The notes beneath the pieces were generated by a model. It made no database searches, had not been told where the DNA came from, and saw nothing but the letters and a program-made list of their open reading frames with translations. A stretch of 64,000 nucleotides of DNA from Muricea muricata (Eukaryota > Cnidaria > Anthozoa > Malacalcyonacea > Plexauridae): NCBI GenBank assembly GCA_963855995.1, contig OY979718.1, forward strand, positions 43,273,559 through 43,337,558, written 5' to 3'. The position numbers and the translations under genes are program-made. This document shows positions 3,352 to 37,223 of the stretch, piece after piece (position 1 is the stretch's first letter; the number at the start of each line of letters is the position of its first letter).

Positions 3352-3663
3352 TTTATAGAAGGCTCAACCCACCGCGCTGGTAATAAGCTTGACTTATTAG
3401 TTTGTAATAATGCAGAGAAGATACGCGATGTATCAACTTTTTCCTCTGATGAACACAACTTCCCTACTGATCCCCACATTATAAAATTCAGCATACGTAC
3501 AAAATTTACAAAAGCAAAACCCGTGCGACGTATTGTCTTTGGCTACAACAAAACCGAGTTTTCCGCATTACGTAGAGCCTTGTCAGAAGCAAAGCTGGAT
3601 GTACCCTTTACAAATAACATGGATGAATGCTGGGAGCAGTAGAGAAGCACATTTTTATCTATC

Positions 3664-4017
3664 GTGACCACTTTTGTCCCGACCAAACTTGTGCCGGATA
3701 CCAACTCCCCTCCTTGGATTGATGGTGAAGTTCGTCACCTAATTCGCAAGAAATATACCGCTCTGCGACATTACAGGAAAATTAAAACATCTGCACTAAA
3801 GATTAAACTGCGAAACCTGTGTCAAAAAGTCAAGTACGCAATCAGGAATAAACATAAAATGTACATTGCTAAGATCGAAGCATCGTTTAAAGACAACCCT
3901 AAGATGTTCTGGAGCTATCATAAAGCTATACTTCATCACCGATCCACGACAAACCCCGTAATAACCTTCAAAAACCATACAGCAACATCTCCTAAAGAAA
4001 AAGCAAAACTTTTCAAT
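3664..4017 (+). pseudogene. LINE inter-domain fragment
   Basis: It encodes the segment between endonuclease and RT, with PPWIDGEVRHLIRKKY and DNPKMFWSYHK, as in CR1/L2 elements. It is cut at 4017 by a palindromic MITE; the frame resumes at 4401 with SYFCSVF. Confidence 0.75.
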
Positions 4018-4400
4018 GGACCATTCCCCAATTGGACAAACTTTTAAGTTCAAAAACAATTGTAGCACAGTTGGAAAGAACTTCCTAAATTTAGTAAAAT
4101 TGTGAGGTTTGGTTGTAAAATATTGTAAAATGTGGAAAATATAGCTCTTTAAAGTTTGCAAATTTTGTATACTTTTGTATTACGCGGGAAAAAGCGTTAC
4201 CACAATTCCACATAGTGGTAACGCTCTTCCGTTCGTAATACAAAAGTATACAAAATTTGCCAATTTTACAGGGCTATATTTTCCACATTTTACAATATTT
4301 TGCAACCAAACTTTACAATTTCACCAAATTTAAGAAGCTCTTTCTAACTGTGCTAAAATTGTTTTCGAATTTAAAAGTTTGTTTAATTGGGGAATGGTCC
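4018..4400. mobile_element. Palindromic MITE family GGACCATTCCCC, copy 1, nested in LINE
   Basis: A near-palindromic 383-bp element with ends GGACCATTCCCCAATTGG and its complement. It interrupts the LINE reading frame exactly between LFN and SYFCSVF, with AT repeated on both sides. The centre holds GTATTACGCGGG... and its inverted partner. Related copies lie at 39205, 45866 and 54975. Confidence 0.8.
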
Positions 4401-5369
4401 ATTCCTATTTCTGTTCTGTCTTTCGTCCTGTACAATCTACGGAGATTAACGAAGCACCCTTTTCTTTGCTGACCTCGGCTTTGTTGTCTGATATCTCCAT
4501 CTCAGAGGAAGAAGTTGTTCACCATCTTTGGAACCTGGATCCATCTAAATCTCCTGGACCAGACAATATTCCTGGTCTCATTCTAAAGCAATGTAGCACT
4601 GCCATTGCTCCTAGTCTTTGTTCACTGTTTAATCACTCTCTTAAAACTGGAACTCTACCTACTGAATGGAAGGAAATCTGCAAATGTTACATCGGTTCAC
4701 AAGAAAAATAAGAAAGAGCCTGCTTCTAACTACCGCCTAATATCCCTACTTTCCTTCATCAGTAAAGCCTTGGGCGCTGCGTTTGCGATCGTTTCTGTGA
4801 TCATCTCCATGAGATAATAAATAAAGCACAATACGGATTTCTTCACGGTCGCTCATGTGTTACGCAACTTCTAACCACCTTACATCACGTTGGACAACTA
4901 CTAGATAATAACGTTCAGACAGGTATTGTCTTTCTTGACTTTGCTAAAACCTTTGATTCCGTCGATCACATCATCTTATTAAAGAAACTTAAGTCTTACG
5001 GTATCTCTGGCAACATGTACAATTGGTTCACTGATTATCTGCACGGACGTAAGCAGCGTGTCGTTGTAGATGGCGTAGCTTCAGGGTGGTCTCAAGTCAC
5101 CTTTGGTGTCCCTCAGGGCAGTATCTTAGGTCCTATGCTCTTCCTTCTCTTCATCAATGACCTCCCTGACATCATTCCACCACCAACGTCGAATGGATTG
5201 TATGCGAACGATACAAAACTGTATAATGCAATAAAATCAAGCCACGATTGCGATCACCTACACTACAGCAAGCATTATCTTACGCTCATCAACGTCTCAA
5301 AATATAAAGTTCTAATAATTTCCCGGCGAAAAAGCCCAATTGAATCTAAGTACCGTCTTGACTCAACAC
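4401..5369 (+). pseudogene. LINE reverse-transcriptase fragment
   Basis: It carries RT blocks SPGPDNIP, SNYRLISLLS, QYGFLHGRSC, FLDFAKTFDSVDH, FGVPQGSILGP and LYANDTKLY. Frameshifts lie near 4680 and 4790. The second catalytic Asp pair reads N-D, so the polymerase centre is damaged. It ends at the hAT insertion. Confidence 0.8.
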
Positions 5370-5780
5370 CATAGGCGTACGAGGCGGGGGAGGGGGCTGG
5401 GGGGCGGGCGCCCCCCCAGTTTTTCGTCATCAAAGAAAGTCGAGCAATTTGTGCTTGAAAAGTCGGGCAATTTAGGTCGGGCATGCTGCGCTCAAATAGG
5501 CTCAATTACAAAAATAGCCTACGGAGTGTGAGTACGGACAAAACAATAATTGTTGAAACCTGTTTCACATTCAGGCAAACCAGCTTTGAATCGAATTTAT
5601 AATACAATATTAGTTTATCAAAAAAGTTGTTGGATGTATGTCAATATAGATATAGTGTTGCATCATGCAACTATTAAACGATATTTTGATTCATTTTTGA
5701 CCCGTCGGGCAACTTCAGGATGCGTCGGGCAAAAATGTGTCCGCCCCCCCTCCAATTTTTTTTTGACCGGTACGCTTATG
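5370..5780. mobile_element. hAT-type non-autonomous element nested in LINE
   Basis: A 411-bp element with inverted ends CATAGGCGTAC and CATAAGCGTAC, G-rich subterminal runs, and an exact 8-bp target duplication CTCAACAC (5362-5369 and 5781-5788). Removing it restores the LINE frame from RLDST to QLMRVDSEVDLGV. An 8-bp duplication is the hAT hallmark. Confidence 0.85.
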
Positions 5781-6495
5781 CTCAACACAACTGATGCGTG
5801 TGGATAGCGAGGTTGACCTCGGAGTAACTGTAACCAGTAAGTTATCTTGGAATCAACATATCATCCTAACGGTATCCAAAGCAAATAAAATGTTGGGACT
5901 ATTACGAAGAACCTGCCCCTTGTTAACGAATCGTGACGCTCGAAGAACATTATACCTATCCTTAGTAAAATCTCAGAGTTATACCACAGAAATCTGGTCA
6001 CCGTCCCAGTCCACCTTTAAAATCAACCTTGAGAGAATTCAAAGACGGGCTACTCGATGGATTCTTCAAGTAAAGATAGGAGACGCCTCCTACAAAGATC
6101 GTTTGTTGGCTCTTAATCTTCTGCCACTATGTTACGACAGAGAAATAAAGAACTTAACATTCTTTTTTAAAGCTATGTACGGGCACTATGACTTAAATGT
6201 CTTTGACTATGTATCAGTCCTAGGCCATAGTCGTATGCGAAATTGTGTAAACCCTAGCTTAATGCTCAAAGTACCATCGTGTAAAACAAGTACATTCCAG
6301 TCTTCATTTTTTAATCGCATCGTACACCTTTGGAACATTGTGTGTAGAACTGCTCAGCCATCAGACTTACGTAGTCTATTTATGTTCAGATCATTTTTAT
6401 CAAGAACGTATTTACAGTTAGTACTTTCTTGTTATGATGTAAACATGACCTGTACGGGGTCGTTATATCGTACTTGTTCATGTCATAGAATTTAA
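5781..6495 (+). pseudogene. LINE RT C-terminal region
   Basis: An open frame of about 230 codons with VDSEVDLGVTV, MLGLLRRTCP and LERIQRRATRWI, the usual CR1/L2 region after the RT core, ending at a stop at 6493-6495. About 330 bp of 3' UTR follow. Confidence 0.8.
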
Positions 6496-11869: not shown

Positions 11870-13050
11870 CTCCTTTAATTACTAAAAATATGTTTCTTAA
11901 GTTCTAGCTTGAATTTATGAATGTTTTCGATTGACTTAATTTTGTCATCCAAACTGTTTCAAAGTTTCACAGCTCGGTAGTGGAAAGTTTTCAGACCAGT
12001 ACTAGTTTGACATTTTGGGATAATCAGGTTGTGAGTTTGTCTGGTGGGATATTGGTGGACACTTGCTCGTTGTTTAAAAAGTTTGCCGAGGTACCGCGGG
12101 GATAAGTCTTTTAGACACTTATAGATTTGAAGAGTGTCTCTGTATATCAGTCGTTTATGTACCGTCATCCATCCAAGTACGTTCTTGCAGTATTGGTGAA
12201 ATATGATCGAATTTGCTACTACCCGTTATGATTCTGGCCGCAAAATTTTGAACCAATTGCAGTTTTTCCATATTTTTGCAGCGGTATTGGACCAGACTAC
12301 TGAGCAGTAGAATTGTTTGCTTAGTACAAATGAATGTATGATAAGGGGTAAGGTTTCTCAGTCCAATAAGTGTATATTTGACTCTGCTGATCTGACAGAG
12401 TTTTGATAAGCACGATGAAACCAATTCGCTGATGTGCGTGTCGTATTTGAAATGGGAATCGAGAGTCACTCCCAAATCTTTCACCGAAAATAGTGCGTAT
12501 GTTTTATTTAGAAAATTTAGTGTGAGTTCCTCTGGCAATGTATCCAACAATTGTGGTGTGCCGAATAATATAAATTTAGTTTTATCTGGATTTAAAAGGA
12601 GGGAATTTGTGCAGCACCACCTGGCGACGTTGTTAAGGTCTTCCTCTAATGTCAGTTTTGCCTTCGGTATATCTTGGATGGAAAAGGATAACGAGACCTT
12701 GCTATCGTCAACATACGAGTCTAGAGAGCATTCTTTGGTTGCAGAGGGGAAATCATTGGTATAAATACTAAACAGCAATAGGGATAGAATCGATCCTTGA
12801 GGAAAACCGAGCGTAATCTTTAAAAGATTGAATTTGCTAGAACCTATTCTAACGTATTGTCTGCGATCTGTCAAGAAGCTTTGAAACCATTCTAAAGCTG
12901 ACAGGGATTACTCCGACGGCTTTCAGTTTTCGTAAAATATACTGTGCCGTTAGTTCCTTTTGGTCCATGGACTTAAGAATTCTGTCTGTTGTGTTAATGT
13001 TAATGGTTTCTATAGAGTGGTTTCGTTTGTTGCCACTTTGACAGGGCGAT
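11870..13050 (-). mobile_element. 5'-truncated CR1/L2-type LINE fragment
   Basis: The minus strand encodes an RT tail: FPQGSILSLLLFSIYTNDFP, YVDDSKV, LLLNPDKTKFILFG and VKDLGVTLD, then RLIYRDTLQIYKCL in a second frame after a 1-nt shift near 12165. A TGA interrupts near 11960 and the final stop is at 11875-11877. It is truncated 5' near 13050. It sits inside a copy of the 114-bp minisatellite, whose halves resume at 11240 and 13056. Confidence 0.85.
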
Positions 13051-19162: not shown

Positions 19163-19255
19163 TTATAGTCCAACAGCACTGGAATGCAATTTGTCATTCA
19201 ATTCGGTGAATTTGTGCAACAGGAGCCCAATGTTAGGCCTCTGGTTCGGATCCAC
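19163..19255 (-). CDS. TAZ-like/kinase gene exon 13, last exon
   Basis: It encodes VDPNQRPNIGLLLHKFTELN then DKLHSSAVGL and TAA. DPxxRP is the kinase subdomain XI signature. Acceptor TTGTATAG. Confidence 0.85.
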   Translation of the reverse strand: MDPNQRPNIGLLLHKFTELNDKLHSSAVGL

Positions 19256-22200
19256 CTATACAATTAATAAGATGCATAATTCATTTGCATGTTGGAGAGT
19301 AGTAGCAGTAGGCACAGGCCCGAACGACCCATTTTTAGGGTCGTACATGAGATGTGGAAGTGAAGGGCCGCGTTAAATTCGTCGAGCAGCACTGTTGGAG
19401 CGTTATTAATTTGTTTTTGAGTCGGGTTTTTTTATGCACCGCGATTTTAATCTCAGATAAAAATACCTTGATAAATAATTACATAAAAATTGTGGAAAAA
19501 TCTCGAAAAATCTCGATTTAAATTGTTTAAAGTCGAAAGATTCTGCTAGAAAACCTCCTCAAAATAAATTAAGTTCGATGAAATCCCTCGAAAGTCGGGA
19601 TTTACCTTATATATATATATATATATATACATAGCTTTATATGATATAAATCCCTCCTTTTCTCGTGAAAAAGGAGGGATTTATATCATATAAAGCTTTA
19701 TATGATATAAACCCTCCTTTTCGGTGGTTAACTCGTTAGTTAATAGAGTGCTATGATTGATTGATGGTCTTACAATATTTTATACATTTTCCACCAAGAC
19801 TTTACCAATGTTCGAAGTACAACTTTAAGGAATATATATGGCTTATCTTGGACTATACAGTAAGTTGTAACTACCTTGGACTACAGTCAGAACTATCTTA
19901 GCCCTTAAAGGCAGAGCTATCTTGACTTATAAGTTAGTATTAGCACAAGTATAAGAACATATACACAAGAAAGATACCTTCACACAAGATTCAATTAACA
20001 TTCCAATTCCTATATTTTTAGCTTTCAACTCTGAAAGTTTCTCCTCCTATAAAGAAGCACAACAAAAATATTTTGCGTTTAGGGTCACTTTTAGGGCAAC
20101 ACCGTTATAACCTCTGGACTATAGGGGCATTATCTTTAAGGAGGGCTTCCAAAAGCGTAAACTTTAAACTATGAGCGCGCCAAGGATAATGGATTAATGT
20201 GTATTTAGGCCCTGGTACTCAGGGAATTACCTTTGTAGCAAGTAAATTTGCCGTTGCAAGTTTGTGATTTACCCTCGATGCTGTTTCAAAGAAATAATTC
20301 CGTATTTGGATCCGAGGTAAAAATAAGCAATGATCAATCATCCCTTGCGCATTCATAGTTTACAGTTTACGATTTTGGAAGGACAACCTTCATTGAATTA
20401 GCTGCATACACAACGATATTTTGTGTTGCATGGTATTAACACATATTCAGGTATATACAGGTATATACAGTATAACATTCGGTCATGACGCCACGAAATA
20501 TGTTCATGGACAATGATTAAAAAGTTTTTGTAAAATGAGCATTTCAAACCATTTGAATACACGCAGCTGTATTATTATTATTATTATTAATCATCTTTAT
20601 ACAGGTTTACTCGTTCAGCAATTAGTGTAAATGCAGTTATCCCACAAGGACCTGAAAAAATCACTACCCAGTAAATAGCACAATTCGTACAACTGACCCC
20701 TGATCTCTAGCACAAAAACAATTCACACTGTATTCAACCCCGGAAATGCTGAAATGAAACCTTGAAACAAAACTACCATTATAACTAAAACAACCAAACA
20801 ACCATTAAAACATGTTTATGTATCTTTACTAGGATTTGGAAAGCTTGGATTTTTAAAGTGTATGACTAGCTAGCATCTGTATTATTATGATCACAATTTT
20901 TGTAGCGCAAGTGCTTCATATATACAAAGTAGATAAGATCAAATGCAATTACAACATTTACTCTTAAGTAACAAGTAAATGCTACGAAAAACCCATACCA
21001 GAAATTGACGCCACATGCCTTTGTTTCGAGTGGGTGGAGATGTTCCATTCGGTATTACCATTTCCACGTAAAATATCCCTAGAGAGTAAATATCTCTGGT
21101 AGGCCCGTTTTCCATCTAGAACGTAAAATAGATGTTTAAATAAAAATGCTCATGTTTCTAGGCAAAACGTGTTTTAGGTACAAAGATTCAATTCGATTTT
21201 TTCCCATCTAAACAAGCGCAAAAAAATCACGAAATATATCAAGAGAACTTGAAGACGACTGGATTAAAAATAGGTTCGCTACGCGTGCATGTATTTACGT
21301 TTTTTAACACCATGGCAAACATAAATAGGACATGATATATAAACCTATGAGGAATAAGATTACTTGTTTTAATTTAAATAGCATTAAAACCAATATTTTT
21401 AGATGTTATTGTGAAAATAAAATAATATCATCAATGGCTTATTACAGTATATAATTCTCATAGTAAGTTCAGGCAACATTAATCTCAACATATACCGGTA
21501 GACTAGTTATACTAAAAGATAAGCAGACGTATAGGCCTTCACTTGAAATGCTAAATACTAAAGGATTATTGACCGAGCTGAGGTCTGTACCGTGAAATAT
21601 CGGACTGAGGTTTTTTAGTACGGACCGAGCGAGCGAGGTCCGTACTAAAAAACCAGAAATCCATATTTCACGGTACAGACCGAACAAGCGAGGTCAATGA
21701 ACTGTTTATTATATGGCTCGCGGTCATTTTAAGAGTTAGTGTGACATTTTGTATTTAAATGACGTCGATCGTGGTTTCGTTAATTACAATACAAAAAAGT
21801 TGAACATGACAAAACTTTATTTTTTAAACATAAAGTTTTCAAACATATCAGTAAAACATCAATTTCGTTAATAAGTATATTGTAAGCAGTACAAAGTGCG
21901 ATTAAAAACACTGGGAAAAAGCCCGGTCCGAATACGGAAATTTACGGACCACGGTCCGAATACGGGTTTTTACGGACCGCACGTCGACCAATCACATTGC
22001 AGGATTCTTCAAAGCCATATCATAATGTGGCATACATACAAAGGATGGCAGAGTTGAAAAATCTGAATGCATTATTTTATTTTGGATAGGCCACAGGTGA
22101 CCTTTTTAAAATGCTGAAAAAGCAATGGATATATTTTGTATATGTCTTGGCAGAGTTCGCTGAAGAACTCGGAAATAAACAACTGCCCATTTAGTTTATA

Positions 22201-25200
22201 TTCAGTACTTAAAGTCTGACTTTTTTGCAAAATATTACTAAAGCGATTTTGAATTTGAGTGTTTTTGGATTTATTCCTTGCTATTAAATGTTATTAAATG
22301 AAATTGAATATCTGTGCAATATTTGTCCTTCAGTAAATGTAAAGTAAACTAGCACATTTTTCTAGGCAGCATCATGACTAACTACGAGCTTGGCACAGAG
22401 ATAAGTACATGAAATAATGTACATTCCAGTGCATTTACAAGTATTTTGACTAGCTTGTAAGAACTTTATAAACTCACAGAATCACACAACTTGTTTTCAT
22501 ATTTCAAACACATTTGACACAGACACAACTTGTTATAAACAAATTGTGCGATATTTTCCATGATTTTAAGTAAAATTAGAATGCCACTTACACGTACATC
22601 TACACCTTAATAATATCGTGAGTTTAAAACTAAGCTTAGCTGCTCAGATTTACAAGAATTATACTGATATCACTATATAAGTATATAGACACCAATTAAA
22701 ATCATTTCTGTTGTTATATTTGTGCTAGTTTGTCAGCAGATTCTTCACAAACAAGCATTTCGACGGACAAAATCCTGTCTTCTGGCTGGGGCTGGATATT
22801 TACTTATATGCAGTCACACTAGCGGGCTACCCGGCCTAGCTGCTGACAATGAGTAATTTACACACGATACGGACAGACCGGACGCGATTTGACAGGGCTA
22901 GGGATGAGCCGATTAATCGGTAAATAATCGGCAAAGCCGATTATCGGCCAATTTTAAAATAATCAGTAATCGGCCGATTATTGCCTGATAATCGGAAAAT
23001 AATCAGCTATAAGATTTTTTCTGCATCTGCCAAGAACATGCTAAAATTCTCCATACAAGCGAATGGATTTCTACATTTTGTTGAAAAATGTACGTGTTTT
23101 GACTCAAAACCCGTGTCTTTTGTCCGGTGAGTGGCTTGGAGGAAGTCATTAAAAACGCAATGCATTCCAATGCATTGAGTCATTACCATATTCTGTTTTC
23201 TGACTGACTTAGACTTATCCTGATATTTGCTATTAAAAAATTTCTCGGAGTTATAAATCAGTTAATTATTCTGCCCAGAACTAAATGGCGCACAATAAAA
23301 CTGCGTGAACAATAATACCGCATTTACAACTTCAATTTTGGTCATTTTGCAATTTTTCTCTTGCTTTTTAAAATAATTGGCAAGTACCGATTAATCGGCC
23401 GATTAGTTACGATAATCGGTTTATAAATAATCGGCCTCAGTAATCGGCAATTTTCCTTATCGGCTCATCCCTAGACAGGGCGACGCGAATTTTCGATTTT
23501 CAACATCCTTTAACTTTAATCCTTTTCTATTTTTCCCCAATCTTCGGAAGGACTTCGGCAATTTAAGCTATTTTGTGCACATATCTAGCCAAACTTCTTC
23601 GGTTGATGGTTTTATTTGCTTTTAAAAATCGAAAAATCGCGTCGCGTTGGCAAATCGCATGCGGTCTGAGTGAGCATTTATACAAGTCGCTGATTGGCTA
23701 CAAGCAAACAAAGAAAGTTAACGGAGAACGGAATGAGTGAACAAGTCGACAGCATAGTATCTATCGCTACGCGTAGATACAAAAAATTACTGTGTTTTCG
23801 TCAGTTTATGGGGATCTTGCATCTGTAAAGTACAGGGTTCAGGTGCCGACCTACTCATAGCAATCTGATCTGGCAGATAAACAGCAGACTATCTAAGATG
23901 AGCCAGACACTACATAAAAAAACAATAGAGCAATTACCTTTGGTGACATAAAAAATGGCGTTCCACCACAACGCCCAGTAGGTAAACCAATTTTGGCGAA
24001 TTCATAGTCAGTTAACATCGCGTAAAGTTTTCCGTCAATCCGAACCATAAGGACATTACGAGCTTTGATGTCGTAGTGTGTAATGCCATTCTGATGGGAA
24101 AACTGTGTTGCTTTTAACACATGAATGAAAAACCGGTTCGCCTCCTTCAAAGTGAGAACACGGCCCTGCAAACGCATGTGATCGTGCAAAGAATATTCTA
24201 GAATTGGAAAAACAAGAGATGAGACACACCGAGCACAAAATTCCCTGAGGTACCCCGCATGTATGCTTCGTAATTCTATACTTAATATCGACGCACCTCG
24301 TCGGCTATCAGCTAATATATACGTTCGAAGAAAAACTGTTCAATTAGCCATATAGTCCTTCAAGAAATTCATTACTTTATCTCTCTATTGATCGCTTACT
24401 CGATTAAATTTCGCCGCATCACAATAGTGCAAAGTCAACTTTGCACTAAAAATGCGAAAAGCGACCTCATTTTTCCGGTTCGAGCCGTAATGTAAGATAT
24501 TTATATGTATACCTGCCCGTCGCATAACCATCATATGTTCGAACGTCGTCATGACCTCCTTTCCGGATTTTCTGTTAAGCCACGGTATGTCTTGACGCTT
24601 TTGTACCAGAAAATAATGATCTGCACTGTATCGACAATTGACGAGCTTTTTCAACACTTGCATTTCATTTGCACTAACGTTTGCCTAGAAAAAATGAATC
24701 AGTTTGTTTGAAATTGGGTGGAGGTAATCTTGACATCTACTTTAATTTTCTTATCTTATTACATGTTTTGATACTAGAGAGGTTAAAATAAACCAGCTTT
24801 GGTTGAACTAATCAGAATTTTTAAAAAGAACATCAGTCACTAAGCAAATTATACTAAGTGATTGTAAGTACATTTCAGATGCAGGTGATGCATGACTGCA
24901 AGGTAATGTATCTCGGTAATAAAGAGGATGCATGAACATGACTGAATGAGAATATCGTGGTTCCACGGTACACAGGACATTTTTTCTTTACAACAATTGA
25001 TTTTTTATTTCGAGCTTTCGACACTAAGTTTACACTTTTTAACAGGCGAAAGGTTATCTGCTTGTCAACCAAAACTTTAATCAAACAATCTGCAAATTAA
25101 ATTAAAATAAGCCGTATTCTTACTATTTTTGCGCAAAGCAAAATGTCTTCATTACTTCCTAGCTTCTTCTTCCCACGATCAAACAGTATGATTTCGTAGA

Positions 25201-28200
25201 CCACACCATTCCCGCCACGTCCCAATTCACGTCCGAGTATGTAATCCACTCCCATAATAAACCTCTGTCCTTTCAGCGGACTACCAAGCTAAAATATCAC
25301 AACAAAAATATAATAGATAACATTATTATTTATTGAAAATATTTTAGGAGTTTGATTGGTTAAGAGCTAAAGGTGAAATCGTCATATCCGCTTGGAAGTT
25401 GCCCAAATTTGGAGTTGAAAATAAATATACGACATTATGACTCATTTCGTCGTATATTGTAAACAAATATACGACATTATGACTCATTTCGTCGTATATT
25501 GACTGACCTTTGTTAATCGACCTTCCGTCGTAATCTGACAATTGTATTGAGAATATTTTTCCGTAGTCTGATTGGCTTATTAAAGTTTTCGAACAATTTC
25601 ATGCTGTTCCATTTATATTAGCAGCTTGTGTCTTCTTACTTACAAAGCAAGCGTTGAGACTGAGTTTAAAATATTTTCAAAAAATAATGAAACAATTATT
25701 GAATTCGGTTCTCGCAGGATATGAGAAATTATTAAGGCCTCGGTTTGTGTTATCTGCCGAAGCCGATAAAACAAACCTCTGCCTTAATAATTCCTCATAT
25801 CCTGCGAGAACCGAATTAAATAATTGTTTATTAACTGCCACACAACACTGGTTTTATTGAACGAGTACAATCACCACCACACAATGATTGCATTCACGAC
25901 CCAAGGTTTCGACAGTCCAGTCTAGTATTTTTTAGAAGTGATCTGATGTTGAAACTCGTGACCTTATATACTGTCAACATTACGTCATCTGCCAACAAGA
26001 TGTATATACTCTTGTGCCGTCATCACTATTTAGGGCACAAGAGTTCGCGTTGATATGCCAGGCTTCCTAACAAAGCCGTTGAAAACAACGATTGTTAGTG
26101 GTAATGATTTTGGAATCATTCCTCGCAATGTCATGACTTGTTTGGCACACGTGTTCAGCCAAAGCTGATTTGGAACTGTTCGAGTTGGAAACATCCGTTT
26201 GACGTTCTTTCAGACGTGTGCCGGCAAAACTGACAGTCACCGCATGGTATAGAGTATACAGCTTGTGTGTTTTGATCAGTCGGAACACGACGTCAGGTTT
26301 GGCGAAAGTATGTCCCAGTATTTGAAAGGTTTTCAAGGCAACCTTGGATCGTAATAACATTGATAGTGCGCAAAAACCGTTATATCCATTGACCACGTTT
26401 ACATTAGTTGTTGTTTTTGTGAGACTGGCGATATATGGCGGGATGCATGGGCATAGAATATCGATTATAATATACATGCTATAAAAACCAGTGGTCAATA
26501 ACACGATTGAGCACGGCCAAAATGCGCGGGAATATTTTCCCGTTATTTTTTGAGCTCATTCGAGTTATTGAGCACTTGGGAAGTTGGGAGGCCACGAAAA
26601 AAGCGTAAGAGGCGCGGTCTGGGTGCTAGCCGAGAAAAATACTTAATTTTTGAAAAATTCCTAATTTTTCCTGGCTCAATCATGGAACGTTTTAGTGTCA
26701 AAAATATAAACAAGACAAAAAAAATTATACCTTAAATTCAAATTGTCCAATCAGAAAACTTAAGTTGACGGCACGAGAACATTTCCTCACATTCACTCAA
26801 TCCCATGCACGAATACTTCGTGTACCATGGAATAAAATATTTCATTTTCATGGTGACATATGAAATATATATTTCATGGCACACGTGCGATCCACGAACT
26901 TTTAGAATCGTAAATTTTAGTTTTTCAGTATAAAATATCATTTGTAGACCTGCCGCTTGGGGTATTTGGCGAACTACTTGGCAAATATCATCATTTCGGC
27001 GCCGAATACCCAGCACTACGGGTCTATAAACGATAAATATATGCCGTCCCAGAACATAATCTGAATAAATTACACAACACCCGTTGCCCAAAATGCATGC
27101 ATGTACAGCACACGCACGTGACAAACATGCCATTGGACTACACATTACATGGGAGATTAATCTCAGTGAATTACACTGCCAAAAGTGAAAAAGATGTAAT
27201 CTAAAATACCTAATGAAAAGAGGTAATCCAATATCCCTTGCAGCCTTGCGCGTTCAACGTACAGATTTTAAACATAGATATCTCATACATATACAAGATG
27301 AAGATGGTGCATCCCACACTGTGGGCTGGCGAAAATTGAAGCCAGATCGCTGGTCGTTCCCACAGAGTTGACACGGAGCATGATAATTTGTGTATTTTGT
27401 ATTGCGGAAATGGACAAAGTTGACAATAAGTCCTCTTTTATGCAGCTAAAAAGTATTTAATACACAAATGCAGAAAAGTATAGTGTTTTCTGTAGCATTT
27501 TTTTGATGAGTGGGAACGACCAATATGGCCGTCGCCTATTGTTATGAGGGGATACCGCTGAGGTTTTTGGCTTCACTTTTTGATATACAGATGCGCTATC
27601 TAGTGTATATGAGATATCTATGATTTTGAACCTCGCAGATATACTCACAACTTTAAATTCTTCAATTATAGTTTCATTTGGCAAATTAGAACCCTGCATT
27701 GCAGTTGTGGTACTATCTCTACCAGGTTTTACTTGATTAACTTGATTGCCCCTCAAAACTGGCCCAGCGCGTGCATTTTCTTCATGATGGCCGCCACGTT
27801 CTGGACGTTCACTGCCTTCACGCCTGAAGAAGAAATTACAGTGAATAATAAATCCACTCAATAAACGCAATTTTCACTATAATAAATCGCATAATAATTA
27901 CTTGGCAACAACTTATCTCTTACCGTTGAAAACATAGCTTTCGAACAAAGGATCTTCGTCGGGAAGATAAAAGATCAAGAGCCTTCGCTCGAAACGTCCA
28001 TTTTTACTTTAAAGTTTTAGGCAGTGAGAGTACTTAACAGGTTATTCCACCCTCTCTAGTCGTATATGAGCGATAGCAAACTCGGCTATATAGGCTTGTA
28101 ATCACCTCGCATTCGGTGACTAATTGTTAATTATTAGATATGCAAATTACACGTTATGAAATCACAGTTAACTTTTCAAAAATCATCAGTAATTTGCAAG

Positions 28201-31200
28201 GCAAACAAGTAATTTCGCACAAAAGTGCAAACACCACGCCATTAATCGTAGTTTACACACGTACATCACAGTTTTAGTTGTTTCTTGTTGTCATATGCTA
28301 CAAATCAGCAATCTTGAAGATACTCATCATGAACAGTGATTTCATAAGTTGTGTAATTTACATGTCGAATAAAGTTGAACCTCTCGAGAAGGTAAAAAGC
28401 TAAAAAAAATTATACCAAAGAAGTTACACTGCCATTTTAAGCGATCTTTGCAATGTAATTCATGGCCACTTCAAAATATCGCTACTATAGATGTTAATTT
28501 CAGAACTATACTCACCCAATTGCGGCGCAAAGGAGACAAACTTCTTCTGATGTTGCTTCACCAAGTGCAACACGACAGGAGCATTTATGAAATTCATAAA
28601 CAATCCGAACATTCTGACATAACTGACATTTTCCCTTCTTGTCACACGTTTGGCGGTGATGAAACAACTCCCCTGCCTGAATGAGAATCAATGTCACAAC
28701 ACATTCCTTACATTCAACAAATGTATACAATTATTTGGCTGTTCTTCATAAAATTATATACCTCAAATATTGAACACGCAAGGGATCATATGTTCTTGCT
28801 GCATTCCAGCTGCAGACTGGTCACGAACTTCGCAAAAACCCAACTATCCATGTCATAGTATCATAAGCTAAGCTGTATTTCCACGTTTATGTTTTTACCT
28901 ACCTCCCCTTGCGAGCTCAATATTTAATACCTATATTCTAGGAAGATAACAGTTTTTGCACTCAACTGTTTAAAAACAATTTACAACAATTTCTTTTACA
29001 TTAATTACCGAACTGTTTAATGCGGGTTGCGAATTTTATGAATTTGTGGACGTAAATTTCACAAAATAAATTGAACGGGTTATAGGCGCAGACACTCTCT
29101 GAACTGCGTCTTATCTATCTAAGGAATTTTTGCTGTGTATTAACGTTCAAATGGCTAATGGGAACAAGTTATTTATCGGGAGTTGTAACGATGTGCAAGT
29201 ATGAAACTATATACAAGTATGTAACTACTAAATAGTCGAGTCGAACCGCCTTACAGCATGGAAAGACGAGTCGAAAGCTCGCCCGCTGTTTTGGATGCGG
29301 GAAGACAATCAAGTGATCAGAAATTGTCCCAGAAGAGTTATTCATGGTGAATATCGAAACAAACCGAAACTTAAGCAGCAACAGCAGTTGTGAATGGAAA
29401 AAAAGAACGACGACTCTGGTGGAAATGTATTTGTACGTCGCAAGATTGATTGCAGCTGAAGCTAACAGCTGTTCAATAACTGATTTCGCACAACACAGCT
29501 TCACTAATCGTACATTACTGGTAAATTATTGCCAATTCCTTCCAGTTGCTTCGGGAGACGGTCGCTTTGTTATATACGTAAATATCACTATGATACTTGG
29601 AAATAAAACCTGGAGCTGGCGGTTAAGGTTTTTGCGAGGTCTGTGCAGACCTCGAAGTCTACCAACTGTCTACCCAATGAAGCACAAGTGTCATGTACAT
29701 CACGTCAGAAACTTGACCACAAGCCAGCCAAGGCGAGATTTGTCGGCTACAGCCTTACACAGAAAGGATACAGGTTATAGGTTTAGAATGGACAAGAAAT
29801 CTTTATTCGAAGAGATGTTACATTTAATAAAATATACGTGTGATGAATATAGTATTGAATGTGCCGAAGAAGAAATGGACTTAAGGCAAAGAAAGGATAA
29901 CCGTGGATTAATAAATCCCCTAAAGGACCCCCGACGCTCAGGACGAGAAAAAAATCCACCAACGTTCTACCACGACGTGTACACTGGAATCCGTACAGCA
30001 AAGTATTCAGCACTTTATCTACCTGAAATCGAAAAGTTAATAAAGGCCTTCCCTTGATACTGAATATGGAACACAGTGGAAAGCAGCGGCAGATGGTGAG
30101 TACCTGTGTCTGTTAGAGAATGAAACTTGGGAATTAGTTGAATCACCGACAGGAGTAAGCCTATCATTTGCAAGTGGGATTTCCAAGTCAAGAACGAAGA
30201 TACAGAAATATTTAAAGGTCGTTAATGGCTGAGGGATTCCTGGCTGAGGGCCTCAAGTTGACTATGATGAAACACTCTCTGTGCAGTTCGTTTCTTATCA
30301 ATCTGTCCTCAACTGGCTTTTGGTGTTTCTCGACAAATGTTGATCCATCAAATGGATGTGGTAACGGCATTCCTCGACGGTACTTTGCACAAGAAAATAG
30401 ATGTAGAACTAGGTAATAAAGAGCTGGTATGCCAGCTCAAGAAATTGAAATTTCAGTCAAAAGCAAAGTCCATGACGTTCTTGGAAGCGTCATTAAAGAA
30501 TTCATGTTATTACTAGGATTTGTTCAGAGTGTCGCAGATTCCTTCGCGTCTTCAACTATAAGCTGACGATTAGTACTGTTCACGTTGATTGAACTACTGA
30601 TTCTTCTAACGGAAACTGAAGAAGAAATAATCGATCTAAAAACCGGCCGGGCAAATCAATTTCAAGATGAAGGGTATACTGACTATATTCTACAACTGTC
30701 TACCAATTAGTGTTGCTATAAAGAACGATGTGTTGCAAAATGTTAACAATATATCGTTAAGTGCAAATTAGAAGATTGCAAAACCGTGTCAACGCTATTG
30801 GATTTTAGCATCAAGCTAATTAAGGACATGGAGATAGTAAACAAGTGGATGCCGCTCAGTACCAGTCAATGTTATAGGTAGTTTGAAATACGCGACAATA
30901 AGTATTCGTCTGAGCTGAAATTAGGATTTTTCATGAGTTGGCGTGTTCATTCGAGTTAGCGAGCACGCGAAAAGTTGGGAGAGCACAACTAAAAGCGTAA
31001 AAGTTGCTCGAGACGCTAGCTAAGACCAACTCTAGCGTTTAAGTCCTCTCCCAACTTCCCAAGTGCTCAATAACTCGATTGCATGAGCACGCCTACTCAT
31101 GAAGAAATACATTTATAATATACAATTTACAGAAAATATTGAGCACGCGTTTCCAACAATGAAAAAGCTTTTCTTATAACAGGTATATTATAACACTGTC

Positions 31201-34200
31201 CAAGCAATGATATGATAGCACAAATCTTGACGAATCCACTATCCAAAGGGCAATTCGAGCATTACAATATATTTAGAAACCTGTGGCCCTCAATAAGCTA
31301 AATTACAATGTTGTGTTTATGAAACAAATACAAACAAATACGAAATAAATTCAACATTGACTATATATTTAGAGAAAATTGTGCGTTCAAACAATCCTAT
31401 AGATCACGTTATGAGCACTTGCAATATAAGTATCTGATACTTTAAAAAAAAGTTACCCCCATCGGGTTAAAGAGGCGGTCATCGTACCTTTTTACACCAA
31501 TCACACGAGCACATTTTACACGTTGCATTACTATTGGATGCACAACATTCATTCTTTTTTTTTTCAGACAAATAATGCCGCAACATATTCACGACCACTT
31601 GCATTTTCTAAACAGAGAAAGCACGACATAAACACAGTCCCTGAAGTTGTATGTATATAATATATCGACCATATAATTAAATATAATGAAACGCAACCAT
31701 TTACGACCACTTTCCACGTAATTTCGGCAAACGATCATACGACCGCTGTTTTATAGGGGAAACTACTGAGAGCTGAACTGATCCAGTCGAAAGGATGTGC
31801 TAGGGGGTAACTCTGTACGGCTATAATCCTAGCCTACTCTGTTACCATACCCCGAGAAAGGAAACTGCATGGACACACCAGAAAATTTAAGCCTACAATG
31901 ATTTTTCTCACATTGCAATCAATACCTTATTAAAAGCTTTATTTCCATCAATATGTGCTGCTTTCGTTGGGACAGGAACATCTAAAAAACAAGGGTCAGT
32001 CATTTTTCATCATTGCATTCGTTATGGTATGGCGTGTGCGTTGATATATTCGTGCATTATGAGATTTTCTTGTCCAAGGTCTCATCAATCGAGAACGTAA
32101 ATTTTTACTTGTGCCTTTTTTGACCACTAAGTTGCAACTAATCTTGATTTGCAAATGGTTTGAGGTGGATCAAATTTCATCGCAAGGTTTTTGTGGGTAG
32201 CCGCGCATGCGTAGCTACCCACTATGTGAGAACCGTAAAATGTACAATCGTGTGTGGGTTCGTGTCCGCAGTACTGATCCAGTACTAGAGTGGATAGTCA
32301 AAAGTGAAGCGGCAATGATTATATATGCGAAAATCACTTCCGGGAACGAAGGTGAATTTTGCCGGATTTGAGATACTTTACGAGTTATACCAAGCTGATG
32401 GCTTCAATTTTGTCTAAAAGATGTTATGTTAATGCTTTTGAAACGCTAGTTATCTGGATTGTCCTAAAACATCGTCATTTTTGTTTGTTCACAGTTGTTC
32501 ATAAAATACAATGCATCCGAACTGTTCGTTCAAAGTTGTCCATGAAATAAAATGCATGGCGAACAACGTGAAGCAAGGTGAATTTTGCCAAATTTGAGAT
32601 ACTTTACGAAGTTATACCAAGCTGATGGCTTCACTTTTGTCTAAAAGATGTTACCTTAATGCTTTAGGAACGCTAGTTATCTGGATTGTCCTAAAACATC
32701 GTCATTTTTGTTCGTTCAAAGTCCATGCAATTACATATTTTATCGTCGAACACGGATCACCAGTCACCAGACAATTTCACTTGTTAAATGATAAATCTTG
32801 TGCACTAATGGGTTAATTTATAAGTCTACAGTGTGTCTGAAAAAAACAGAACCCGCATAAATTTATTATGTATGCACTTGGGAAATCTTTGACCAAGTAG
32901 TTGACCAAATATTGAGGAATGTTCACAGCAGTTCCTCGAAGTCAGGCAAATGAACTGATCAAAATTTAGGAATATAAACTCAATTAGCACAACTGTAATC
33001 ACATTCTATTAGAGTGCACAACTTATTGTAAACTAAAATACAAGTAACAAAACCACAAAACCAATTCAAATGTTTCATCATTGACAAAACAATGCATCTT
33101 GAATAATTAACAAAACAAATCAAATTGTATTTGACACATTAAAATACAGTACCTCACAATTTTTTAGATATGTTTATGCCTATTGAAAAAAAATGTACGT
33201 AATACTCGTTTACTTTAAGTGTAATGTTTTGTATTCCCATAAACTGTGCCAATTTACTTAATTTCAATAACTTTAGCTTTTGAAATAGCCATTGTCAAAC
33301 ACTGCAGGCTACCCACATGTACGCAGCGCGTACCTATTTTTTAGACTTGTCTTGCTATACGTTTGAACAAAAAATACAAGTTCATACAACTGATACAAGA
33401 ACATTTTCGTGATCAGTTTCTATTTAAAACGCAGTCTGATTTAATAATGAAACTTTGCAAAATTGCCCTTACACGAGCAAAAAGTATCGCAATTTTTAAA
33501 TCTTTGCGAGAACTTGCGTCTCGTTTGATCACTTGCAATATATGGCTTTCCTCTCGTCTAATCCGATTAAATTAATAAGCATAGTAACATCCAAGTCAAT
33601 ATATGGTAGAAATTATTCAGAATTACGTGACCACGCAAAAATTTATCTACAGGTCACTAATGTGAATTCGATGTCAAAGAGGTTAAATAAAATATTTTCT
33701 TTAACCGATGCAGGGTATACCAGAACTAAATGGTGGAAAAAGATGGAACCCAATGTTTCAATTCTTGTAGTCCCACACTGTCCGATGGTTACCGAATAAT
33801 TTACACATCATTTTACCACATACTTGATTCAGCTGCCAGTTGTAAGGGTTGCATAACTGTATTTGGTGTTGGGGAAGCTGTGTTTTGGTTGGGGCAAGGA
33901 GTTTTAGTTGACTTGGATGTTTCATCAGGATATATTTCATTGTGCTGCTGAAAGCCTTGAAAAAGATAAGAAAGGAAAATAAAAATTCTATTCAATGGAA
34001 ATTATATAAGCCTCTATGGGGTAATTTACATGATCCCTACATTATTTCGTATAGTTTTTGTTGTATATTACATGAGAGAAACCGGCCCTGTGGCTGGCTC
34101 AATTCTGTGCAACTTATTAATTATATTTATCATATCAAAGTATAAATTAAAGTTGGTCATCTAAATCTTGGAACAAGCACCAACAAACAACTGCATAGTT

Positions 34201-37200
34201 TTTGAAATTATACTTTTAAATTTTACTATTATAATTATATTATCATAAACCTTACCAAGTGTCAATTTATTTAGTTCTTAAAAAACTATAATTGGGGACA
34301 CCTATCCCGATTAACTTAAACCTACTGAAAATACTATTTCCCTAAATTATTCCCTAAGTTATTGTGATATAGTAAGTTAAATGAAAGGATTTGGAAATCT
34401 ACATTTTAGAAATCTAGAACACTAAGTCAAGCAGAGTTAACAAATATTTTTGCAAGTAAAAACCTAAAAACAGTTCATTTAAATATTTTTGCCAGTAAAA
34501 ACCTAAAAACAAGTCTCATGCCTTCATATATTTCCCTATCATTCAAGTACTCGCTAACATAAAGTTCAACTATTTGTTTAATACCATATTGAGTCCATGT
34601 AGGGAAATATTTTATCATTTTTTTTTTCGTTACTTTTTCTTTGATAACTTTCGAATTTTATACTGATATCCTGTATTTTTTTCTGCTATCCTCAAGACAC
34701 CTCTGGGACCAATGGTCCTGCAGTCCCCCATATTATACAGCTCTGTGTTTTACAGTCAGCTCTATAGTCACTTTACATGGAACATTTCCAGCCCTATTTG
34801 GCAAAATCTCGCCTTATCAACAGCCATATCTCACCAAGTAGGGCTCCCTTCTCTAATGTAAACATCATACTGTCTTAAGCATAGATTTCACATATATTTC
34901 AAGCCACCATTTGCTTGTGAAATATTTCAATCTAATATTGATACAATTTTCCCACATACTTGTTATGGGTTTTTGTTGTAGATGAAGAGGAAGATGACCA
35001 TTATTTGAGTGATGCTCAGCAAGAGATCCATGTTGTTCTGGGCCTAGATACACAAAAGAGGGTCTTGACTGAGTTTTGTTTAAGTCTTAAGTGTTATAGC
35101 AGCCTGTATTCTAAACATGTTGAATGCTAAACATTTTGCTGTTTACTGTCATGGACATCTTAGCAGTTAACTTGAAAAATGTTGGATGTGGCGTAAATTG
35201 GAGGTGGCGTAATTTTCATTGTGGTCTCTCAAACTGAGGTGACTGATGGTATTTTCTGATGATATTGTTTTCTAACTTGCTCTAAACCTGAACTATATCA
35301 TTCTACTATTCATCATTTGCTTCTGTTTATTTAAATATAGTGTACAATGTGTTCATGTTTAATTATATTGTAGTGAGAGAGATGCCTTGAATGTGTCGTA
35401 GTTATTGACATGTTTCTCCTTTTGGCAATTATTTGCTTGCTTTATTATATTGTGGTTCCTATAAAGGTAAATTTCAAAAGACTTTCAGACAAAAATTGAT
35501 AGTTTTTACATTGCTACAACCTTAGACTAGAATAAAGAGACGTTCAATATACTGGTACACTTCAAGTTTAATATAATTACGTGGCCCAACAAACGATCTT
35601 GCATATTCAATATCCTATCAGTTAAACACTGCCCATTACAACACTAATACATTTAAGCAACTGTTGAATTTTTCTACATACATGTACCTGATTTACCTGA
35701 CTGTTGTGATGGTAAATCTGCATTTTGAGTTGGTGAAGTGTTTTGAGTTGGGAAAGACGTTAGAGTTTTTGCTTGAGCTCCATCAGGAGATTCATTTTGC
35801 TGAGAGCCTAAATATATATTACATACAAAAAAAACTGACATGAACAAAAACTTCAGTCAAAATAATTTTTGGTAAACACTACATAAGCTTTATTTGTGCA
35901 AATTATATCATCAAATTTAATCAATTATTAGCATTAACTTTTATTACATTCTATGTGGTATTTCCACAAAATTATGTTAATTGATGTACTGACAATGCAA
36001 ACTTACATAGGACTAAGTAAATTTCACCAGTAATGTGCATATATTGTTAATAATACATGGGTGCGTGGAAATACCAGATTTATTTGCAGTGTTGAACATG
36101 ACATCTCAAAATATCATGTTCAAACCGAGAAATAAATCTGGTATTTCCAAGCACTCATGCATTTTTCTGTTTATTATATAAACTACAGTCTTTCTACCAA
36201 TAAAAAATCTAGAAACTATGATTGCTAATTGTTTGAAAAGAGACAATTTTCACATGTGAAATTATCAGAAATAATCTCACATGTGAGATTATCAGTTTTA
36301 TCAGTGCCCAAAATCCCTATAAAGTACTGTACTTTATATAATAAACATTATTAAAAAGTCAAAACAATTAAACACATATTCCCATGTATAATTTTGAATC
36401 CAATTTTGTGTTATTTGCAATCTTCAGGGGGTTTACGACTGTATGTCTTGGAAGCTTATCTCTGTGACCCTGTGGGTTTAGCTCTGACAGATTGGAATGT
36501 TTGTACTTTGCAAATTTCGTAAATCTTGATCACACAATTTTCACACTTTCCAGTCTGGTATCTTGTGTCTTTCCAGTCTGGTATCGACGTCCATACTCGA
36601 ATTGCCACGCAAAAACGTCATTTTGACGTTTTTGCTTTGACCCACCCACCCAGTGCTGAAAACGTCAAGTGTATACATAAATGCCTCAAGTTAATAACTT
36701 CTATATACACATCCAAATGAATCTCCATAGAAAGGCATACATTTTTCAGTATCTTCTCATTTTAAAAATCAAACCTGCCAAGCAAAACGTCAAACTGTCT
36801 CTTAAATACCCACCTATCCACTCAAAACTTCAAAATGACGTTTTGCATGGCAATTTGAATATGGACGTGAGGACGTCGCCCCTAAGTAGTCAACTATGCT
36901 GACAAGTAGTCAACTATGTTCAAAACAGCTTTAACTGCCTCTAGACAACCTACAAAAACCATCACTGACACAGGCTTAAATATGCAGCTACTAAAAGTAG
37001 TAAAATCATTACAAATTGTAACAGACTAATAGTAAGATGCAAATAAAACAAGTAAAATCAAACTTGTGCAAACAACATGAACTTATGTAGCTGTGTCATG
37101 CTTAATAAGCAAAAATTGCATCATACAATATCATATATAGCATTGACTGTTATCGTTTTGCTTACCTTGCCCTTCTGTACTTGTACTGCCGCTATTTTTA

Positions 37201-37223
37201 CGAGTTAGTCGATGTGGAGCCAT
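19163..37223 (-). CDS. TAZ-like zinc finger and divergent protein kinase, 13 exons
   Basis: Exons on the minus strand: 37223-37166, 35807-35697, 33955-33824, 31981-31926, 31607-31488, 28676-28516, 27823-27649, 25288-25124, 24684-24513, 24197-23938, 21115-20999, 20046-19978, 19255-19163. All borders are AG/GT and all phases match; the sum is 1689 nt, 562 aa plus stop. Residues 1-119 are Ser/Thr/Gln/Pro-rich. Residues 120-212 are Cys/His-rich with C-x4-C-x8-H-x3-C-x5-C-x2-C-x9-H-x3-C, the spacing of a TAZ2-type finger except for C-x5-C (CBP has x7). The kinase domain covers about 286-550: Gly loop GRGGNG (294-299), Lys325, Glu333, HYDIKARN (Asp426, Lys428, Asn431), Asp447 in DYE, and DIYSLG. 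DFG reads DYE and APE reads SPK, so it is atypical but keeps the catalytic residues. The role is not known; TAZ fingers usually bind transactivation domains, which suggests nuclear signalling (inference). Confidence 0.85.
19633..19697. repeat. Near-perfect hairpin in the last intron
   Basis: Arms of about 29 bp (AGCTTTATATGATATAAATC...) separated by a short TCGTG-type loop. A third partial copy follows to 19722 and (TA)n precedes it. Confidence 0.75.
19978..20046 (-). CDS. TAZ-like/kinase gene exon 12
   Basis: Twenty-three codons: EEKLSELKAKNIGIGML then IESCVK. Acceptor CTTTATAG, donor AAG|GTATCT. It fits the helix G-H region of the kinase. Confidence 0.75.
20139..20397. mobile_element. Inverted-repeat MITE in intron 11
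   Basis: Arms pair around AGGGCTTCCAAAAGCGTAAA at the left and TTTACGATTTTGGAAGGACA at the right, with further pairing at CTATGAGCGCGCC. No ORF. Confidence 0.65.
20999..21115 (-). CDS. TAZ-like/kinase gene exon 11, helix F
   Basis: It encodes MENGPTRDIYSLGIFYVEM, the DxWSxG region with Tyr for Trp, then KGMWRQFL. Acceptor ACGTTCTAG, donor CTG|GTATGG, 39 codons in phase 0. Confidence 0.85.
21566..21699. repeat. Palindromic foldback (TATAATAAACA family)
   Basis: Arms TTATTGACCGAG... and its partner pair, with an inner GGTTTTTTAGTACGGACCG hairpin. Just outside the right arm is GTTTATTATAT. Confidence 0.7.
22899..23473. mobile_element. hAT-type non-autonomous element, 575 bp
   Basis: Inverted ends TAGGGATGAGCCGAT, multiple internal TAATCGGCCGATTA words, and an exact 8-bp target duplication GACAGGGC (22891-22898 and 23474-23481). 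It lies in intron 10 of the TAZ-like/kinase gene. Confidence 0.85.
23938..24197 (-). CDS. TAZ-like/kinase gene exon 10, catalytic and activation loops
   Basis: It encodes the catalytic loop GITHYDIKARNVLM, the metal-binding segment LTDYEFAKIG and the activation-loop end GGTPFFMSPK. Acceptor CAATTCTAG, donor AAAG|GTAATT. Confidence 0.9.
24513..24684 (-). CDS. TAZ-like/kinase gene exon 9, helix C and beta 4-5
   Basis: It encodes ANVSANEMQVLKKLVN (Glu333 of helix C) to EHMMVMRRA. Acceptor TTTTTTCTAG, donor GCAG|GTATAC. One base is left that makes Glu with the next exon, giving RRAEYSLHDHM. Confidence 0.9.
25124..25288 (-). CDS. TAZ-like/kinase gene exon 8, kinase N-lobe
   Basis: It encodes the Gly-rich loop (DYILGRELGRGGNGVVYEI) and the ATP-binding Lys in LLCAKI. 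Acceptor ATATTTTAG, donor ATA|GTAAGA. Phase 0, 55 codons. Confidence 0.9.
25427..25500. repeat. Tandem copies of a short palindrome
   Basis: Two direct copies, about 38 bp apart, of AATATACGACATTATGACTC...GTCGTATATT, each itself a hairpin. Confidence 0.7.
25691..25828. repeat. Palindromic foldback in intron 7
   Basis: Arms AATTCGGTTCTCGCAGGATA and its complement, with paired TTAATAAT and an apex near TGCCGAAGCCG. The right end is followed by TTGTTTATTA. Confidence 0.75.
25980..26260 (-). mobile_element. Penelope-like GIY-YIG endonuclease relic
   Basis: The minus strand reads GTRLKERQTDV, ALAEHVCQTSHDI, then RCFQRLC*EAWHIN and LNSDDGTRVY, matching the C-terminal part of the GIY-YIG domain that ends Penelope-like retroelements. 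One TAG interrupts it. The GIY-YIG start itself is not recognisable. Confidence 0.55.
26530..26640. repeat. Half copy of the foldback seen at 30927
   Basis: It shares CATTCGAGTTATTGAGCACT, TGGGAAGTTGGGAG and AAAGCGTAA with one arm of the foldback inside the Copia relic. Confidence 0.55.
27649..27823 (-). CDS. TAZ-like/kinase gene exon 7, linker
   Basis: Fifty-eight codons of charged linker: REGSERPERGGHHEENARAG, then RGNQVNQVKPGRDSTT and NETIIEEFKV. Acceptor TTCTTCTTCAG, donor GTT|GTGAGT. Confidence 0.8.
28516..28676 (-). CDS. TAZ-like/kinase gene exon 6, core of Cys/His domain
   Basis: It encodes AGELFHHRQTCDKKGKCQLC then QNVRIVYEFHKCSC and EEVCLLC. Acceptor CTCATTCAG, donor TTGG|GTGAGT. 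H166-x3-C170-x5-C176-x2-C179-x9-H189-x3-C193 supplies the zinc-ligand pattern. Confidence 0.85.
29640..31303 (+). mobile_element. Ty1/Copia-type retrotransposon fossil
   Basis: Fragments in several frames match Copia pol in order: ARRSGREKNPPTFYH-type linker near 29930 (reads RRSGREKNPPTFYHDV), the RT start WKAAADGEYLCLLENETWEL near 30070, IHQMDVVTAFLDGTLHKK near 30345, and the C-terminal MIAQILTNPLSKGQFEHYN near 31220 with a stop at about 31303. Stops and shifts are frequent. A foldback (30927-31105) is inserted in it. It lies in intron 5 of the TAZ-like/kinase gene, opposite strand. No LTRs were found. Confidence 0.7.
30927..31105. mobile_element. Foldback nested in the Copia fossil
   Basis: Arms TTTTCATGAGTTGGCGTG and its partner CACGCCTACTCATGAAGAAA, then AAGTTGGGAGAG and CTCTCCCAACTT deeper in. 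A half copy lies at 26530. Confidence 0.7.
31488..31607 (-). CDS. TAZ-like/kinase gene exon 5, start of Cys/His domain
   Basis: Forty codons: KMQVVVNMLRHYLSEKKKNE then CCASNSNATCKMCSCDWCKK. The N-terminal amphipathic helix and the C-x4-C pair resemble the first part of a TAZ finger. Acceptor CTGTTTAG, donor AAG|GTACGA, phase 0 both ends. Confidence 0.8.
31926..31981 (-). CDS. TAZ-like/kinase gene exon 4
   Basis: A 56-nt exon: acceptor TTGTTTTTTAG, then VPVPTKAAHIDGNKAFNK, donor AAG|GTATTG. It joins exon 3 in phase. Confidence 0.75.
32180..33345. mobile_element. Possible non-autonomous element with internal duplication
   Basis: Both ends carry TGTGGGTAGCC in inverted orientation, and the right end has GTACGCAGCGCGTACC. 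Inside, a block of about 150 bp (32345-32495) is repeated at 32574-32722. A sequence near 41944 has the same terminal words. Confidence 0.4.
33824..33955 (-). CDS. TAZ-like/kinase gene exon 3
   Basis: It encodes FQQHNEIYPDETSKSTKTPC then PNQNTASPTPNTVMQPLQLA. Acceptor TTTTTCAAG, donor TCAA|GTATGT. It appears to be a duplicate of exon 2 (QQ-N-E-PDxxx-K-T, P-QNT-SPT). Confidence 0.8.
33960..35690. other. Intron 2 sequence
   Basis: Intron 2 of the TAZ-like/kinase gene. A direct repeat containing AAAAACCTAAAAACA occurs at about 34460 and 34498; otherwise nothing is recognised. Confidence 0.5.
35697..35807 (-). CDS. TAZ-like/kinase gene exon 2
   Basis: It encodes SQQNESPDGAQAKTLTSFPT then QNTSPTQNADLPSQQS. 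Acceptor ATATTTAG, donor TCAG|GTAAAT. Low complexity, same phase and similar composition to exon 3. Confidence 0.8.
36059..36156. repeat. Palindromic foldback in intron 1
   Basis: Arms GGAAATACCAGATTTATTT and its complement. GTTTATTATATAA follows the right arm, as with the foldback at 21566. Confidence 0.75.
36585..36878. mobile_element. Inverted-repeat MITE in intron 1
   Basis: Arms CGACGTCCATACTCGAATTG and, inverted, CAATTTGAATATGGACGTGA; both contain AAAACGTCATTTTG-type words that recur inside. Confidence 0.7.
37166..37223 (-). CDS. TAZ-like/kinase gene exon 1 (start codon)
   Basis: ATG at 37223-37221, then APHRLTRKNSGSTSTEGQ, donor CAAG|GTAAGC leaving one base. It is the only ATG in phase with the next exon that I found nearby. 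Confidence 0.75.

Follow-up and report, generated by a model that had tools for sequence, protein, structure and literature searches.

A predicted octocoral gene combining a TAZ-like Cys/His module with a divergent protein kinase

Introduction

Does a single gene of the octocoral Muricea muricata join a TAZ-type zinc finger to a protein kinase? TAZ domains are known chiefly as parts of histone acetyltransferases, in which they serve as docking modules. A first-pass annotation of this DNA described a gene joining a TAZ-like finger to a kinase, and we rebuilt that gene and examined its two halves separately and together. The window is the whole stretch of DNA analysed, 64,000 nucleotides, and positions refer to it unless a C3, C13 or L coordinate is given.

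Results

Exon structure of the coral kinase gene

The gene was rebuilt from the sequence as 13 exons on the minus strand, running from 37223 to 19163 and encoding a 562-aa protein from ATG to TAA (Table 1). All 12 introns are GT...AG with matching phases, and all 13 exons are open. The annotated gene, with its thirteen exons, twelve GT/AG joins, matching phase and 562 residues, was thus reproduced; identity of the two models was judged on length, ends, and motif. The sequence ATTAAA lies 227 nt past the stop codon of exon 13. For codon usage, each exon was compared with 400 open intron segments by a score whose training set was the reading frame of the neighbouring ADCY9 gene plus that of the CBP TAZ2 exon. 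Exons 1-7, 9, and 10 are distinct from these segments, 0 to 14 of which reach the exon score. The signal is weak for exons 8, 11, 12, and 13, where 31, 49, 28, and 52 of the 400 segments score as high. Exons 8-13 are supported instead by the kinase match described below.

Table 1. Exons of the coral kinase gene (window positions) and the CBP locus. Codon usage is the number of 400 open intron segments reaching the exon score.
Feature	Position	Strand	Content	Codon usage
Exon 1	37166..37223	-	start codon at 37223, ATG; donor GTAAGC	2/400
Exon 2	35697..35807	-	Q/N/S/P/T-rich; phase 1-1; resembles exon 3	0/400
Exon 3	33824..33955	-	resembles exon 2 (suggested exon duplication)	
Exon 4	31926..31981	-		5/400
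Exon 5	31488..31607	-	Cys/His module, first half; residues 120-159, C140-C157	14/400
Exon 6	28516..28676	-	Cys/His module, second half; residues 160-212, H165-C209	4/400
Exon 7	27649..27823	-	finger-kinase linker; one open frame	0/400
Exon 8	25124..25288	-	kinase: glycine loop 294-301, Lys325	
Exon 9	24513..24684	-	kinase: helix-C Glu333 to hinge	0/400
Exon 10	23938..24197	-	kinase: HYDIKARN 424-431, DYE 447-449, SPK 468-470	0/400
Exon 11	20999..21115	-	kinase: DIYSLG 478-483	
Exon 12	19978..20046	-	kinase subdomain XI (LIESCVK before VDPNQRP); brings the Pkinase score from 58.9 up to 68.4 bits	
Exon 13	19163..19255	-	kinase end VDPNQRP and stop	52/400
CBP gene	C3:43.207-43.221 Mb		three TAZ pieces; TAZ2 frame with Q-rich tail	

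Exons 2 and 3 are alike. Their DNA local score is 101, compared to 69 for the best of 2000 shuffles, and at the protein level their score is reached by 3 of 5000 shuffles. This likeness suggests an exon duplication. An alternative exon 12 at 20231-20280, which gives a 560-aa model, was rejected: it sits in a dispersed inverted-repeat element (20136-20400), and the kinase motif and the 562-aa protein are obtained with 19978-20046 in its place. The element itself is intronic and MITE-like, with inverted ends at 20146-20206 and 20321-20381 (80%) and a copy at L010:9144-9362 (76%). The intron between exons 5 and 6 contains, on the opposite strand (29344-30057, +), a reading frame resembling a retroelement remnant, with no Pfam match at E<=0.01.

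Two of the three TAZ zinc sites can be drawn in the Cys/His module

Residues 152-193 read C-x4-C-x8-H-x3-C-x5-C-x2-C-x9-H-x3-C, exactly the Cys/His string of the first-pass annotation. A further pair, C206-x2-C209, lies outside that string. The TAZ2 fold contains three zinc ions, each in an HCCC site of one His and three Cys, as one report describes it (PMC12022988). Two such sites can be drawn in the coral finger, H166-C170-C176-C179 and H189-C193-C206-C209, and these are its predicted zinc ligands. In the first TAZ site, C149, C152, and C157 are in place, with Asn where TAZ has His. The finger matches the CBP/p300 TAZ domains (PF02135) in the order C-x4-C-x8-H-x3-C...C-x2-C-x9-H-x3-C, in two putative HCCC sites of three, and in basic charge, but it falls below the Pfam cut-off and its first zinc site is without His. 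The loop of the last site has 12 residues, compared to 4 in the CBP TAZ2 of the same genome. In an alignment that includes the finger, it keeps 11 of the 17 positions invariant in five TAZ domains and loses 6. The MK-x-V core of TAZ is gone, and the net charge is +6, compared to +10 to +16 in five real TAZ domains.

Possible kinship of the finger to TAZ

Six cut-outs of the finger and two versions of the whole protein were scanned against Pfam. The zf-TAZ family was the sole family listed for the 48-aa cut-out (14.5 bits, E 0.051) and the 43-aa cut-out (15.3 bits, E 0.028), both below the curated cut-off of 25 bits. It was missing from the other four cut-outs and from both whole-protein scans (560 aa and 562 aa). 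The other families found for the finger, KOW6 (E 0.07-0.1) and a conotoxin family (E 0.9-1.8), are far below cut-off. The expected TAZ hit was therefore obtained in two of six cut-outs, but it was sub-threshold and was absent from the whole protein.

A TAZ profile was built from p300 TAZ2 and four bona fide TAZ domains found in the coral's own genome, with the coral kinase protein left out. In hmmsearch, exons 5 and 6 together (94 aa) scored 10.2 bits, a value reached by 0 of 20,000 composition-keeping shuffles and by 3 of 2000 shuffles with Cys and His fixed. Since none of the 20,000 shuffles reached it, the score is more than chance. The 48-aa core scored 12.5 bits, with 3 of 20,000 full shuffles and 7 of 2000 Cys/His-fixed shuffles as high. 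Among 132 scored Cys/His-rich stretches (140 overlapping local controls were taken, of which 131 scored), the finger ranks first, and a Cys-rich piece of the CBP locus comes next. When the finger was compared by tblastn with about 237 kb chosen for TAZ loci, all its non-self matches at E<0.1 lay within those loci.

Other comparisons count against TAZ kinship. The hhalign probability for the finger against TAZ was 11-14%; 0 of 300 full shuffles scored above the finger, the best being nearly equal (21.9 versus 21.94). With Cys and His fixed, at least 8 of 300 shuffles outscored the finger. Exon 6 alone gave E=0.12 among 7449 ORFs, beside non-TAZ ORFs at 0.15, which is chance level. Its predicted fold, computed for this single 53-aa exon and uninformative as such, has a pLDDT of 48.3. 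A phmmer search with the 94-aa finger returned no TAZ chain from the PDB, which does contain such chains; two other chains matched at E<=10. The better of the two was 2k9h (E 0.31), a chain called Glycoprotein that we take to be a pair of zinc fingers.

These data are suggestive of kinship to TAZ. The proposal of a TAZ-like finger holds in its spacing, in its advantage over shuffles, and in its rank above 131 scored local controls; it is weakened by the score under the Pfam cut-off, the two cut-outs of six, the lack of a TAZ chain among the PDB matches, and the loss of the first-site His and MK-x-V. Given the weak and mixed profile scores, the lost first-site His, and the 6 of 17 invariant positions lost, the finger is not filed as a TAZ member and is called TAZ-like. 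A TAZ-like fold is the prediction that goes with this name.

The main competing description, possible but rather doubtful in our estimate, is that the finger consists of two tandem C2HC units whose TAZ spacing arose by chance, and that its role in an orphan kinase would be dimerization, nucleic acid binding, or self-inhibition. The units C154-x2-C157-x8-H166-x3-C170 and C176-x2-C179-x9-H189-x3-C193 have near-equal spacing and use eight Cys/His residues, and both the 2k9h match and the missing first-site His of TAZ fit this description. However, it leaves C206-x2-C209 without use, and residues other than Cys and His add to the TAZ score, as the Cys/His-fixed shuffles (3 of 2000) indicate. Nor did the six Pfam scans of the finger, whose HMMER filters drop most weak matches, return any C2HC, C1, TRAF, or B-box family, whereas two returned zf-TAZ.

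The C-terminal half is a divergent protein kinase

The C-terminal half matches Pfam Pkinase (PF00069) with 68.4 bits over profile positions 2-258 of 263, against a cut-off of 31.7. With exon 12 at 19978-20046 in the model, this match grew from 58.9 bits over profile positions 2-195. The near full-length match above cut-off bears out the annotation of a divergent kinase and establishes its homology. Lys325, Glu333, Asp426 (HRD), Asn431, and Asp447 (DFG), which we take to be the residues for catalysis and for binding ATP and Mg, are all kept together with the glycine loop, and QRP is found at 537-539. In this match and in these residues the coral protein is like the eukaryotic protein kinases. 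It differs from them in that its similarity to any of them is weak and in that the DFG and APE motifs read DYE (447-449) and SPK (468-470), with loss of the DFG Gly and the APE Glu. The Lys325-Glu333 spacing is also short. The nearest solved relatives by sequence are the PAK4 and SIK3 kinases (E about 7e-10). Seven NCBIfam families were matched; they are bacterial kinases, and all are far below cut-off.

Some known kinases deviate at the DFG Gly or the APE Glu. The DYE and SPK changes lower the case for activity and leave the kinase homology standing. The C-terminal half is a divergent protein kinase, probably active and of the Ser/Thr type. We consider it unlikely that it is instead a pseudokinase scaffold that binds partners without phosphorylating them, or part of a decaying locus. 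DYE for DFG, SPK for APE, the short Lys-to-Glu distance, and the failure to find an orthologue (see below) would suit such a fate, but Lys325, Glu333, Asp426, Asn431, Asp447, and the glycine loop are present and 13 of 13 exons are open.

Exon 7 as a probable link between finger and kinase

Linker exon 7 contains 10, 0, and 3 stops in its three frames, and its single open frame is the continuation of exon 6. Exon 6 ends at a GTGAGT donor, and reading past it into the intron meets a TGA at once. The coding signal of exon 7 (0/400) and its one open frame, which continues exon 6, favour a model that joins both halves in one putative transcript. That TGA and the Met residues in exons 7 and 8 would allow two adjoining genes, one for a short Cys/His protein that stops at the TGA and one for a kinase that starts in exon 7 or 8, but this is improbable: exon 7 is open solely in the exon 6 frame and scores 0/400, exon 6 has the GTGAGT donor, and a search of 5.8 billion proteins gave no close free-standing kinase of 162-516 aa.

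Relatives of the coral kinase

The 562-aa protein was compared with 5.8 billion proteins. Three matches were obtained at E<=0.001 (relatives of 309-983 aa), all generic kinases that look bacterial by their domains, with 34, 34, and 25% identity over 19, 20, and 42% of the query. The kinase half alone found 21 kinases (relatives of 162-516 aa), one of them from Planctomycetota, with a best E of 1.5e-6. We did not find an orthologue among these proteins with either query; distant relatives may have been missed because the search requires shared five-residue words. The same fusion had been suggested as something to look for in other cnidarians, and neither it nor another orthologue turned up in this collection. 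A control search with the ADCY9 reading frame, also from this window, gave 3225 proteins, of which the top 12 are 78-94% identical. The octocoral Dendronephthya gigantea is among these 12 (89%), which shows that octocoral proteins are present in the collection; next come stony corals and sea anemones, at 46-48%. The control frame lies at 59426-62731 on the minus strand and is an intronless, adenylate cyclase type 9-like frame of 1101 aa.

The coral kinase is probably fast-evolving or lineage-restricted. Its apparent isolation would mean either recent origin or rapid evolution, or else a lack of annotation in other genomes. In the excerpts of the literature matches listed for TAZ with kinases, mostly open-access papers, no TAZ-kinase fusion is named. 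These excerpts and the relatives search are in keeping with the suggestion of an undescribed architecture. Compared to CBP/p300, the coral protein is without a listed HAT, KIX, ZZ, or bromodomain in the whole-protein Pfam scan. The plant BT (BTB-TAZ) proteins also have a TAZ-type finger outside CBP/p300, but its partner domain there is BTB and not a kinase.

A proposed function for the combined protein

Our preferred explanation, advanced tentatively, is one octocoral gene encoding a disordered-looking Q/N/P/T-rich start, a putative zinc module that descended from or converged on TAZ, a linker, and a divergent, probably active Ser/Thr kinase. The basic finger would most likely bind acidic, disordered stretches in partner proteins, in the way that the TAZ domains of CBP/p300 dock activation domains. 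The tethered kinase could then phosphorylate the docked partner or its neighbours, which would be its targets. Partner binding may also free the kinase from inhibition, a gating step modelled on TAZ2 and the p300 acetyltransferase. One report describes that acetyltransferase as inhibited by TAZ2, with the inhibition lifted when a transcription factor binds (PMC10475075). The connection that the first-pass annotation draws from transcription factors to signalling is an inference. If the finger is a true TAZ, a kinase carrying it would couple the recognition of activation domains directly to phosphorylation. If orthologues are truly absent, the gene would clearly exemplify how a new signalling architecture arose within one coral lineage.

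Genome setting of the TAZ loci

Six TAZ matches (six candidates scored) were found in the coral's own genome, at three loci. One of these is read as CBP from its TAZ1, its TAZ2, and a 76% TAZ2 match to p300. The coral kinase gene (C3:43,292,721-43,310,781) and the TAZ1 exon of CBP share a strand and are separated by about 72 kb. A random place would fall within 90 kb of CBP in 453 Mb with a chance near 4 in 10,000, a figure for a closeness that was noticed afterwards. This post hoc closeness fits a local duplication. It is a distinct possibility, to be held cautiously, that the gene is a true TAZ-kinase fusion, perhaps derived from a local CBP duplication, in which the kinase would read the activation-domain code of CBP/p300 and phosphorylate its ligands or compete for them; it would then be a lineage-restricted octocoral invention.

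Outside CBP, the genome contains a TAZ pair 8.5 kb apart and 1.4 Mb from CBP (L008/L021, C3:44,643,208-44,643,366; L001, C3:44,634,469-44,634,687). One copy of this pair at C3:44.63-44.64 Mb has an internal stop; the pair represents TAZ duplication outside CBP. A further TAZ finger exon (L004, C13:1,843,836-1,844,039) scores 43 bits and is the closest TAZ to the finger by tblastn within a small local set. A clear kinase exon was not found beside these loci, in 80 kb round C3:44.63 Mb or in 60 kb round C13:1.84 Mb (best E outside the window 0.35). The kinase profile used there contained the coral kinase protein itself, so the hits it gave on exons of the window itself are circular and were not counted as evidence.

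Elsewhere in the window, a PLAT/LH2 domain (5.8e-16, on a translation joined by eye within the initial 1200 bases) at about 380-1150 on the minus strand probably marks exons that encode a PLAT-domain protein. LINE-like elements have left endonuclease and reverse transcriptase pieces at 2488-6495 (+) and 12155-12874 (-), with Pfam run on 2488-3348 and 12158-12874 only.
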